The notes below the pieces were generated by a model. It was given only the letters and a program-made list of their open reading frames with translations. It did not search any database and had not been told where the DNA came from. 64,000 nt of DNA. It comes from Ottowia flava (GTDB lineage Bacteria; Pseudomonadota; Gammaproteobacteria; Burkholderiales; Burkholderiaceae_C). Made by a program: the position numbers and the translations under genes. Below, piece after piece: positions 3,200 to 6,936 of the stretch. Every line of letters begins with the position of its first letter. Within the stretch, counting starts at the first letter, position 1. The stretch is from contig NZ_VRUA01000001.1 in NCBI RefSeq assembly GCF_008017535.1, positions 372,001 to 436,000 on the forward strand. The letters run 5' to 3'.

Positions 3200-5473
3200 A
3201 TGCCCATCAGTCAGAAAACCGTCAAGCCAGCCGCCAAAACCGCGGCCAAGTCACCTGCCGCTGTCAGCGACACCGAAGAGGTGAAGAAAAAGCCGGCTGC
3301 AAAAGCTGCCGCCAAGAAGACCACCGCCGGGGCGAGCGTGCCTGCCAAGAAAGCCGGCCGCCCTGCCAAAGGCGCAGCTGCTGCCGAAAAGTCGACACCC
3401 GCCAAGCGCGGCCGTTCAGGCAAGGCTGGGGCTGAAGATGATGCCGACATGTCGGACATTGAGGACGATCTGCAGGGTGAGCCGGAAGCGCCTGCCGTCC
3501 CCGAGGTCGGCGCCGAAAAGCCCAAACCCCTGCGCATGAAGATCAGCAAGGCGAAGGAGCGCGCCTTGATGAAGGAATTCGGCCTAGACGAAGGTGTTCT
3601 CTCTGAAGAAGAGATGACCACCCGCCGCGCCAACCTGAAGGCGCTGCTCAAGCTGGGCAAGACACGCGGCTACCTCACGCATGGCGAAATCAACGACCAC
3701 CTGCCCGACAAGCTGGTCGACGCGGAAACGCTGGAGGCCGTGGTCTCCATGCTGAACGATCTGGGTGTGGCCGTCTATGAACAGACGCCTGACGCTGAGA
3801 CTCTGCTGCTGACCAACACCGGCTCCAACACCGCCACCGAGGAAGAGGCCGAGGAAGAGGCCGAAGCCGCGCTGTCCACCGTCGATTCCGAATTCGGCCG
3901 CACGACCGACCCGGTGCGCATGTACATGCGCGAGATGGGCACCGTCGAGCTGCTGACGCGCGAGGGCGAGATCGAGATCGCCAAGCGCATCGAAGGCGGC
4001 CTGATGGCCATGATGGAAGCCATCAGCGCGAGCCCGTCCACGATCGCCGAAATCCTGCGCATGGCCGAGGAAATCCGCGAAGGCAAGGTCGTCATCAACA
4101 CCATCGTTGACGGCTTTGCCGACGCCGATGAGAACGACGACTACGTGGCCGAGGAAGACTTCGACGAGTACGACGAAGAGGACGACGACGACGGCAAGGG
4201 CGGCTCCAAGGCCATGACCAAGCTGCTCGAGGCGCTGAAGAATCAGGCGCTCGACCGCTTCGACGAAATCGCGGGCCTGTTCGAAAAGGTGCATAGGGCC
4301 TACGACAAGGAAGGCTGGGGCTCGCCCAACTACGTCAAGGCGCAGGCCGCACTGTCGGGCCGCCTGATGACCATCCGATTCACCGCCAAGACCATCGAAA
4401 AGCTGTGCGATCTGCTGCGCAGCCGCGTGGACGACGTGCGCAAGTACGAGCGCGAACTGCGCCGCATCGTGGTGGACAAGTGCGGCTTCCCTCAGGAGCA
4501 ATTCATCGCCGATTTTTCGGGGCGCGACAAGGCGGGCAACAAAGTGCGCTCACACCTGCTCGACCTGAAATGGGTCGAGGGCCAGGCTGCCGCAGGCAAG
4601 CCCTGGAGCGCGATCATGGAACGGAATATTCCACCGGTTCAGGACCTGCAGCAAAAGCTGCTCGACCTGCAAGCGCAGGTAGTGGTGCCGCTGGACGAAC
4701 TCAAAGGCATCAATAAGCGGATGAACGAAGGTGAAGCCGCCTCGCGCGATGCCAAGAAAGAAATGATCGAGGCCAACCTGCGCCTCGTGATCTCGATCGC
4801 CAAGAAATACACCAACCGCGGCTTGCAGTTCCTCGACCTGATCCAGGAAGGCAACATCGGCTTGATGAAGGCGGTGGACAAGTTCGAATACCGCCGCGGC
4901 TACAAGTTCTCGACCTACGCCACCTGGTGGATCCGCCAGGCGATTACCCGCTCGATCGCCGACCAGGCGCGCACGATCCGCATCCCGGTGCACATGATCG
5001 AGACCATCAACAAGATGAATCGCATCTCGCGCCAGCACCTGCAGGAATTCGGTTTCGAGCCCGACGCTGGCATCCTGGCCGAGAAAATGGAGATGCCCGA
5101 GGACAAGATCCGCAAGATCATGAAGATCGCCAAGGAGCCGATCTCCATGGAGACGCCCATCGGCGACGACGACGATTCGCACCTGGGCGACTTCATCGAG
5201 GACCAGAACAACACCGCGCCTGTGGACGCGGCCATGCAGGCCGGTCTGCGCGACGTGGTCAAGGACATTCTGGACAGCCTGACCCCGCGCGAAGCCAAGG
5301 TGCTGCGCATGCGTTTCGGTATCGAGATGTCCACCGACCACACGCTGGAGGAAGTGGGCAAGCAGTTTGACGTGACGCGTGAGCGCATTCGCCAGATTGA
5401 GGCCAAAGCACTGCGCAAGCTGAAGCACCCGAGCCGCTCGGACAAACTGCGCAGCTTTATCGACCCCCAGTAA
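3200..5473 (+). CDS. rpoD: RNA polymerase primary sigma factor (sigma-70)
   Basis: A 757-aa housekeeping sigma factor. Residues 1-110 are the Lys/Ala/Pro-rich extension found in betaproteobacterial RpoD. Region 1.2 is recognised by [20 protein letters not shown], and an acidic non-conserved region ([14 protein letters not shown]) follows. Regions 2.3-2.4 contain [20 protein letters not shown] and region 4.2 contains the helix-turn-helix [19 protein letters not shown] near the C-terminus. The ATG at 3200 has a good AAGG site. In relatives asd follows leuB; here it follows rpoD. Confidence 0.98.
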
Positions 5474-5602
5474 GAAAACCCGCTGGCCTATCCTGCATCG
5501 CCCCTGCGGCCTTTCCCGGCTCGTGGGGGGCGATGCGCTTCTCCAGGCCCAACTTCGGCGCGTCCCGCAAAAGGCGGCGCATCGCCGCTACAATGGCGGG
5601 CT

Positions 5603-5704
5603 ATGAATTCAGCCGCCCGCGTCGACAGCATGCCCCTGACTTGTCAGTCGGGGGTGACGCGCGCCGTGCTTTTTCCCATTACCACGACCACCAAAAAAGG
5701 CTGA
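5603..5704 (+). CDS. Candidate asd leader peptide (33 aa)
   Basis: A 33-codon reading frame whose last residues are VLFPITTTTKKG then TGA. One Ile, four consecutive Thr and two Lys codons directly precede the stop, and all three amino acids are made from the Asd product. The stop codon lies inside the left arm of an inverted repeat (5701-5707/5759-5765) located 95 nt before asd. This is the layout of an attenuation leader, but no terminator T-run is seen and no ribosome-binding site precedes the ATG. It could be a leaderless start, a translationally coupled control site, or chance. Confidence 0.4.
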   Translation: MNSAARVDSMPLTCQSGVTRAVLFPITTTTKKG

Positions 5705-5765
5705 TCCCAGTCTGGTTCGTCGTGCGCCCGCCTCCCGGAGCTTCAGACGAGCCGGGCAGGATCAG
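5701..5765 (+). promoter_or_regulatory. Nested RNA hairpin between leader peptide and asd
   Basis: CTGATCC (5701-5707) pairs with GGATCAG (5759-5765), and inside it GGTTCGTC (5714-5721) pairs with GACGAGCC (5746-5753) with one G-U. Together they form a long interrupted stem ending 34 nt before the asd start. Confidence 0.45.
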
Positions 5766-5799
5766 ACAGATTCACTTTGTTTGAAAGGCGCGAAAGAAA

Positions 5800-6936
5800 A
5801 TGAAAGTTGGCAACCTCGTAGGCCTCGTGGGCTGGCGCGGCATGGTGGGTTCGGTGCTCATGGACCGCATGCAGGCCGAGAAGGACTTCGACCTGATCGA
5901 GCCGGTCTTCTTTTCTACCAGCAACGCCGGCGGCACCGCGCCGGCCATGGCCAAGAACGAAAAGCAACTGAAGGACGCGCACGACATCGAGGCGCTCAGG
6001 AAGTGTGATGTCATCCTGACCTGTCAAGGAGGCGACTACACCTCTGAGGTGTTCCCCAAGTTGCGGGCTGCGGGTTGGAAAGGCCATTGGATCGACGCAG
6101 CCAGCACGCTGCGCATGAATGATGACGCCGTCATCGTCCTGGACCCGGTCAACCTGCCAGTGATTCAATCGGCACTGGCCAAGGGTGGCAACAACTGGAT
6201 CGGCGGCAACTGCACGGTCAGCTGCATGCTGATGGGGGTCGGCGCGCTGTATAAGGCAGGTCTCGTCGAATGGATGAGCACGCAGACCTATCAGGCGGCC
6301 AGCGGAGGCGGCGCGCAGCATATGCGCGAACTGCTGACGCAGTTCGGCACGCTGAACGCCGAAGTCAAGGATCTGTTGCAGGATCCGAGGAGTGCGATCC
6401 TGGAAATCGACCGCAAGGTGATCGCCAAGCAGCGCGCCCTGGGCGGCGAAGAGGTGGCTAACTTCGGCGTTCCGCTGGGCGGGTCACTCATTCCCTGGAT
6501 CGACAAGGATCTTGGCAACGGCACAAGCCGTGAAGAATGGAAAGGCATGGTCGAAACCAACAAGATTCTGGGTTTGGGTGAAGGTTTCGAGACTCCCGCG
6601 ATCCCGGTGGACGGCTTCTGCGTGCGCGTGGGCGCCATGCGATGCCATAGTCAGGCTCTGACTTTCAAGCTCCGCAAGGATGTTCCGCTCGCGGACGTCG
6701 AATCGATGATCGCGGCAGACAACGCCTGGGTTAAGGTTGTCCCGAACACCAAGGAGGCCACCTTGGCCGACCTGACCCCCGTGTCGGTCACCGGCACCAT
6801 GAACATTCCCGTAGGTCGCCTGCGCAAACTGGCCATGGGCCCAGAGTACTTGGGGGCCTTCACGGTCGGCGACCAGTTGCTTTGGGGCGCTGCCGAGCCC
6901 TTGCGCCGCATGCTGCGCATCCTGCTTGAAGCCTGA
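5800..6936 (+). CDS. asd: Aspartate-semialdehyde dehydrogenase
   Basis: A 378-aa enzyme that reduces aspartyl-4-phosphate to aspartate semialdehyde with NADPH, the branch point to Lys, Met, Thr and diaminopimelate. The nucleotide-binding [13 protein letters not shown] is at residues 8-20 and the active-site Cys138 sits in [12 protein letters not shown], as in E. coli-type Asd. AAAGG lies before the ATG. It is not preceded by leuCDB as in many Burkholderiales. A candidate Thr/Lys leader peptide precedes it. Confidence 0.97.

Follow-up and report, generated by a model that had tools for sequence, protein, structure and literature searches.

The asd gene studied here is located at positions 5800..6936 on the forward strand of the window, the whole 64,000-nucleotide stretch of Ottowia flava DNA that was analysed, and encodes an aspartate-semialdehyde dehydrogenase (Asd) of 378 amino acids, the enzyme at which the routes to Lys, Met, Thr and Ile diverge. 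Its match to TIGR01745 (602 bits; cut-off 402.9) bears out an earlier sequence-only reading of the locus, which had named asd as the gene behind a candidate leader peptide. The rpoD gene (3200-5473; NF004208, 901 bits) is situated upstream of asd, and the leader frame lies between the two genes (Table 1). The same arrangement, with rpoD directly 5′ of the asd leader, was observed in a genome of the same genus (L174), as judged by the C-terminus of RpoD; in another locus, a tmRNA gene (L053:1830-2207) lies a few hundred bases 5′ of the asd leader. Among the best 80 asd relatives listed, leuB is close to asd in 64 (25 with the leader fused to LeuB, 33 with a free leader and 6 with none). The leuB gene of the window genome itself is located elsewhere (G000:C1:179028-180074) and ends in GDAVVKALK, with neither the tail nor the inner promoter box described below; a second, distant LeuB-like gene (36% identity) was observed at G000:C12:332732-333760. 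The position of rpoD next to the leader is a local change in gene order, in which the leader has stayed with asd.

Table 1. Predicted features between rpoD and asd in the window, with the basis for each assignment
Feature	Position	Strand	Basis
Candidate -10 box TACAAT, 8 nt before the leader ATG	5589..5594	+	Conserved box in free leaders
Leader peptide ORF, 33 codons, MNSAARVDSMPLTCQSGVTRAVLFPITTTTKKG	5603..5704	+	Frame list; conservation; tails in the same genus
Possible pause hairpin inside the leader coding region	5632..5655 (5632-5641 with 5646-5655)	+	Fold; weak
Sensor codons ATT ACC ACG ACC ACC AAA AAA (I T T T T K K)	5678..5698	+	Codon counts in 75 leaders
Outer stem of P1 in this genus, containing the stop codon	5701..5765 (5701-5707 with 5759-5765)	+	Fold
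P1, proposed ON fold, anti-SD in its loop	5710..5757 (5710-5721 with 5746-5757)	+	Folds; permutation; column test mixed
Anti-SD UGCGCC	5723..5728	+	Pairs with 5787-5792 in the proposed OFF fold; permutation test
P2, proposed OFF fold, excludes P1	5731..5760 (5731-5738 with 5752-5756, 5758-5760)	+	Folds; permutation
P4, small hairpin	5762..5784 (5762-5770 with 5776-5784)	+	Folds from 5708 and 5715
asd Shine-Dalgarno and anti-SD target AAGGCGCG	5785..5792	+	GGCGCG 5787-5792 pairs with 5723-5728

The 33-codon frame ending in ITTTTKKG, from which the sequence-only reading had started, was found again when the frame and its translation were re-read. Among the 1655 stop-ended frames of at least 12 codons in the window, no other has Thr, Ile or Lys (T/I/K) at seven or more of its last eight residues, and no frame with such an end occurred in 60 shuffles of the window. 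The leaders of three genomes of the same genus end in SSITTITKKG, SRITTTTKKD and SSITTTTKKG. A total of 81 loci were compared, comprising the window and the best 80 asd relatives listed (more relatives exist); a Thr/Ile/Lys tail precedes asd in 75 of them, as a free leader ORF in 50 and as the C-terminus of LeuB (termed “fused”) in 25, and the six remaining loci that were read (L034, L039, L050, L056, L069 and L077) contain no leader. Across the 75 leaders, T/I/K account for 499 of the 525 sensor codons at positions -2 to -8 (T 265, K 139, I 95); the rest comprise one Met and 25 others, with no Asn, Ser AGY or Arg AGR codons. Met, with this single occurrence among 525 codons, was rejected as a fourth input. 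The T/I/K share of the last 10 codons of the free leaders is 0.79 in frame and 0.03 and 0.13 in the other frames, and the corresponding values in the fused class are 0.74, 0.01 and 0.10; the Thr codons differ among leaders (ACC, ACG, ACA), as do the Lys and Ile codons, and the amino acids are largely kept. This comparison of sequences points to a genuine leader with broad conservation. That relatives keep the Thr/Lys run, the point on which the sequence-only reading had staked its proposal, is thus confirmed, with the amendment that Ile belongs to the signal as a regular third component. The hairpin within the coding part of the leader has a z of -2.83 in the window segment (mean -0.95 over the 50 free leaders, 17 of which are below -1.5), and is a weak candidate that may possibly act as a pause hairpin.

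On the Asd tree, the nearest named relatives of the window are an Ottowia MAG and Extensimonas. A covariance model, R1, was built from 70 of the 75 loci, omitting five in which the distance from leader stop to asd start exceeds 125 nt (72 to 205 nt across loci), and gave one match each, at E-values up to 0.01, in 236 of the 299 genomes of the window's family and no match in the other 63. The best-scoring 30 of these 236 matches all lie before asd and include a T/I/K leader, in every case of the free kind. Among 200 genomes sampled from the order, all five from the window's family matched R1 with E below 1e-10, and outside this family merely four chance-level matches (E 0.43-0.96) were found. 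Among 30 order-wide asd loci, a leader was present only in L082 (the window), L083, L087 and L097 (by eye, ~330 nt upstream). The possibility that one genome carries the element twice was rejected, the match being merely at chance level (E 2.2), and a search for copies on plasmids found none.

In all 50 free leaders, an in-frame start codon is preceded at 6-10 nt (mode 8) by a TANNNT box, which reads exactly TACAAT in 37. TACAAT is matched at at least five of its six places in 48 of the 50; in shuffled versions of the upstream 40 nt, the mean is 1.78 of 50 and the maximum 5. A promoter with a -35 element was not recognised by a consensus scan of the window region. The ordinary spacing of a -10 box would set the transcript start at or just before the leader ATG, and the window transcript is probably leaderless or nearly so, beginning at or just before this codon. 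The sequence-only reading had named a transcription start downstream of 5704 as the finding that would speak against it; the candidate box places the likely start at or just before the ATG. This box, the anti-SD and a second, competing hairpin are all features that go beyond that reading.

The RNA of 5600-5810 folds better than all of 200 dinucleotide shuffles (z -3.61). Behind the leader stop codon, the elements follow in the order P1 5′ arm, anti-SD, P2 5′ arm, 3′ stretch common to P1 and P2, P4 and the asd Shine-Dalgarno (SD). The nested stem that had been drawn in the sequence-only reading is present, with the stop codon (5702-5704) in its outer arm, 34 nt separating its end from the asd start codon at 5800, and P1 enclosed within it; its meaning is amended, in that the stem is the form taken by P1 in this genus and the point lies in the second fold that competes with it. 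The outer stem reads UGAUCC:GGAUCA in the window as against UGACC:GGUCA in L173 and L175 of the same genus (by eye). When the window RNA is folded from 5708, P1 and P4 are formed, and when it is folded from 5715, the anti-SD pairs with the SD and encloses P2 and P4; in folds that begin at 5687 or at 5600, other pairs are predicted in the P4 region. Folded whole and without a ribosome, the 5600-5810 RNA keeps P1 and pairs the SD stretch (5783-5792) instead with the leader (5665-5674), so that an untranslated leader may be OFF by this other pairing.

The pairing of anti-SD and SD was evaluated in the 75 loci by permutation, in which kinship is ignored. The loci's own duplexes reach -10.31 kcal/mol versus -9.55 (sd 0.13) for permuted ones, and 0 of 20000 permutations were as good; the count was also 0/20000 for the 69 distinct combinations and within the free class, and 509/20000 within the fused class. 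Single cases include GCGCCU:AGGCGU (L066), UCGCCC:GGGCGA (L062) and GUGCCC:GGGCAC (L075), and the duplex is weak in L047 and L067 (-2.2 each), L042 (-5.2) and L020 (-5.9). The arms of P1 and of P2 likewise pair better than permuted arms in the 75 loci (0/20000 each, kinship ignored), and the within-class counts for P2 are 0/20000 (free) and 50/20000 (fused), again with kinship ignored. In the P1 columns of alignment A1, 92.9% of cells are paired (reached by 4 of 500 shuffles), 10 cells are changed on both sides (0/500) and the covariation score is 0.137 (4/500); against this, 3 of 10 pairs are changed on both sides (32/500) and there are 10 further pair types (478/500); kinship is ignored in this test as well. 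For anti-SD:SD, a column test on A1 was set aside, as the alignment program shifts anti-SDs of unequal length out of register. P0, a small hairpin over the stop codon, was rejected (0/20000 in all loci, 12/20000 in the fused class and 3513/20000 in the free class) and is accordingly placed outside the main claim. In L044, L063 and L072, a GGGCGA or GGGUGA that matches the anti-SD is kept despite a GAGGTA-like Shine-Dalgarno closer to asd.

The effect of ribosome position on these folds was modelled by folding the RNA from the leading edge of the ribosome onward, without pseudoknots, with edges counted relative to the first stop base; the values are summed pairing probabilities divided by 5, so that values above 1 are possible, and timing after ribosome release lies outside the model. 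In the window, P1 is at 0.90-1.00 for edges -30 to +6 (0.99 at +6) and at 0.01 for +13, and between +6 and +13 anti-SD:SD increases from 0.01 to 1.13 and P2 from 0.01 to 1.61. The means of the 50 free loci change over the same interval from 0.79 to 0.18 for P1, from 0.23 to 0.92 for anti-SD:SD and from 0.26 to 0.91 for P2. The best edge is +6: at edges -30 to +3 the free-locus means are only 0.62-0.72 for P1 and 0.35-0.48 for anti-SD:SD, which implies a smaller contrast for stalls further upstream. By toeprint distance, the ribosome edge lies at ~+12 or +13 when the stop codon occupies the A site and at ~+7 when the last Lys codon does; the switch point of the free leaders therefore comes after the final sensor codon and before the stop codon. 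In the 25 fused loci, P1 is at 0.12-0.25 for edges up to +6 and never above 0.25, and anti-SD:SD is at 0.50-0.68 for these edges and 0.72-0.75 at +9 to +15; with P1 low and the SD pairing already at this level up to +6, the fused class displays no clear switch.

A further test, which names no helices, followed the openness of the SD between +6 and +13. In 46 free loci (four were left out for length), it falls by 0.212, as compared with -0.008 (sd 0.012, maximum 0.017) in 20 shuffle sets; it falls by at least 0.15 in 27 of these loci (5% of shuffles) and rises as much in 5 (6.8% of shuffles). Among 24 fused loci, openness drops by 0.035 (shuffles 0.001, sd 0.025, maximum 0.037), and the drop amounts to at least 0.15 in 6. 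The SD openness of the window itself barely moves (0.25 to 0.22), although the partner of the SD changes.

We consider it probable that the element is a ribosome-mediated attenuator of asd translation that reads the charged tRNAs for Thr, Ile and Lys, three of the end products made from what Asd supplies. When all three amino acids are ample, the ribosome would reach the stop codon and its leading edge would cover the P1 5′ arm, so that P2 would form and the Shine-Dalgarno of asd would be taken up by the anti-SD (OFF). Scarcity of Thr, Ile or Lys would stall the ribosome on codons -2 to -8, P1 would form with the anti-SD held in its loop, and the Shine-Dalgarno would be left free (ON), giving more Asd. 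In part of the family, the leader is the C-terminal tail of LeuB, which would also be read from a promoter inside leuB. The sequence-only reading had guessed at control of translation, and the covarying anti-SD:SD together with the modelled fold switch argue in favour of that guess.

Classical transcription attenuation, in which the leader would choose between an antiterminator and an intrinsic terminator, shares the identical leader logic and could draw on the U-run found behind P2 or P4 in some relatives (e.g., L008 and L059), but is unlikely here: no intrinsic-terminator-like site was found in 5400-5850 of the window (shuffles, mean 0.9), in keeping with the earlier remark that the downstream stem lacks a T-run, and the covarying 3′ partner is the Shine-Dalgarno. 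Control by Rho or polarity, in which a blocked SD would leave the asd mRNA untranslated and open to Rho, seems quite unlikely as a separate explanation; a translation block is compatible with later termination, but this route needs the same SD switch first, and would hence be a consequence of it rather than an alternative. It is very unlikely that the leader merely feeds ribosomes to asd by translational coupling, without amino acid sensing, since the identity of the codons is kept at T/I/K in frame and anything from 72 to 205 nt separates the leader stop from the asd start; in favour of coupling, reinitiation is proposed as a general role of leader genes in the accessible text of PMC4833913. 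A metabolite- or protein-binding, riboswitch-like RNA with an incidental peptide would also have two exclusive folds and a masked SD, but is highly improbable, since the peptide tail persists in the LeuB fusions and, at the element, Rfam models (Thr_leader among them) matched none of the six relatives scanned and gave no gathering match in the window; relaxing the threshold to an E of 1 brought up in 5560-5830 only a CRISPR repeat model (E 0.63), whose hit at 5805-5830 falls within the asd gene. A leader that senses t6A, a tRNA modification made from threonine, would suit the fact that Thr, Ile and Lys codons are all ANN codons, whose tRNAs bear t6A, but is disfavoured to the point of being barely credible by the codon make-up at -2 to -8, where one of 500 ANN codons is not T/I/K, as compared with ~37% (0.102 of 0.274) of the ANN codons in the asd genes themselves.

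The leader takes a second form in the 25 of 75 cases (window and best 80 relatives listed) that constitute the C-terminal tail of LeuB. In these loci, the LeuB stretch L-A-T-I-L is written GCT ACA AT, which yields a TACAAT box 13 nt before an ATG ATG inside leuB. The synonymous inner box is present in 26 of 26 cases (the 25 fused loci and L083) and absent from the other 39 leuB genes in this set for which the stretch was available (33 of the 50 free loci and all six without a leader). GCT and ACA are used at the box in all 26, and the other leuB genes favour GCC (0.85) and ACC (0.87); no inner box was found among 51 rows of leuB from other families (one locus listed twice). A search for the box in 60 genomes of the window's family, a sample not fully independent because some genomes may share species with the 80 relatives, gave one match each in 22 genomes and none with the reversed pattern. 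Asd follows in all 20 box-found loci that were fetched, the WRGM motif of Asd being 109-137 nt past the stop codon of leuB, and at least six of the last nine LeuB residues are T/I/K in 18 of these, as against five in L188 and only two in L182. The inner TACAAT and a similar RNA are kept in L182, where LeuB ends in ALRGKALTRS, and this locus is perhaps a decaying switch.

On the best Asd tree, the tail and the inner box change 11 times each, with only two independent pairs on starred (well-supported) branches, fewer than a tree-based test of the association would need; starred branches force at least two changes of the fused state. The start of the free leader (e.g., MFAARPFSLN) resembles the LeuB sequence MMLRFSLNQ (by eye only) and is perhaps a relic. 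On balance, we favour the view that, in about a third of the sampled genomes of the family, the asd sensor is the tail of LeuB, and that leuB has a promoter of its own, written in synonymous codons, from which a near-leaderless mRNA for the tail would be transcribed. Because the leuB tail would carry its own promoter, one stretch of DNA would serve as enzyme, promoter and sensor for the next gene, and the same switch may operate there as in the free form. This LeuB-embedded form is the most surprising part of the analysis; the association is perfect but limited by kinship, and its RNA switch is the part least supported by the modelling. If true, it would be a case in which a regulatory leader and a promoter arose within the coding region of a metabolic enzyme, and the odd tail of these LeuB proteins would be accounted for.

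Elements of the proposed attenuator have counterparts in known systems. In the thr operon attenuator of Enterobacteria (thrL; Rfam Thr_leader), a Thr/Ile-rich leader peptide precedes aspartate-family genes. The element described here resembles it in its leader rich in Thr and Ile codons before an aspartate-family gene and in the setting of alternative folds by ribosome position, but asd is the next gene, Lys is added, the target is the SD, no terminator was found and Rfam gave no match. In the erm and cat translational attenuators, a ribosome stalled in the leader frees a masked Shine-Dalgarno, as is proposed here, and the signal is an antibiotic, whereas here it would be amino acid supply. 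The nearest precedent found for an amino-acid leader with a masked SD, according to the accessible part of its description, is the LEU element before leuA of Actinobacteria, in which the run of Leu codons itself pairs with the SD (PMC1262725). That element shares an amino-acid-rich candidate leader peptide and a structure pairing with the SD of the next gene; here, by contrast, a separate anti-SD behind the stop competes with P1, and the amino acids, gene and phylum are different. The transcript of Sinorhizobium meliloti trpL starts at the ATG of the leader peptide (PMC7298713, as far as accessible), as is predicted here, but that system concerns Trp, a transcription terminator and another class, with no fusion to an upstream enzyme. 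A literature search, mostly of sources outside subscription journals, found no asd leader peptide in this group and no LeuB-tail leader, and asd is absent from the main text of PMC2965389 and PMC4833913. If the reading is correct, the element would be a multi-input translational attenuator, in which one leader reads three products and masks the SD instead of using a terminator; no multi-input translational attenuator was found described in this group. The predictions are sharp, down to codons and base pairs, and cheap to check.

A related leader was identified in Burkholderiaceae, where 54 of 60 genomes contain asd and the 30 loci with a locus identifier were read (the other 24 were left out). 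The leader is present in 21 of these 30 loci, with tails such as ELAITTIKTITPKTITKR, most of which are then followed by CGUCGUGCC, as in the window's family, and 240 of the 336 residues in the last 16 positions are T, I or K. In the edge scan, L113 and L114 alone switch clearly and L087 and L112 do so slightly; L123 runs contrary and most other loci are flat, so that a leader is claimed for Burkholderiaceae and the same mechanism is not. In L112-L132 and L138, a hairpin over the leader stop was observed by eye, with a compensating change in L115 (GAUCA:UGAUC versus GAUUA:UAAUC), and the anti-SD and SD of these loci read CCC:GGG versus CCU:AGG (by eye).
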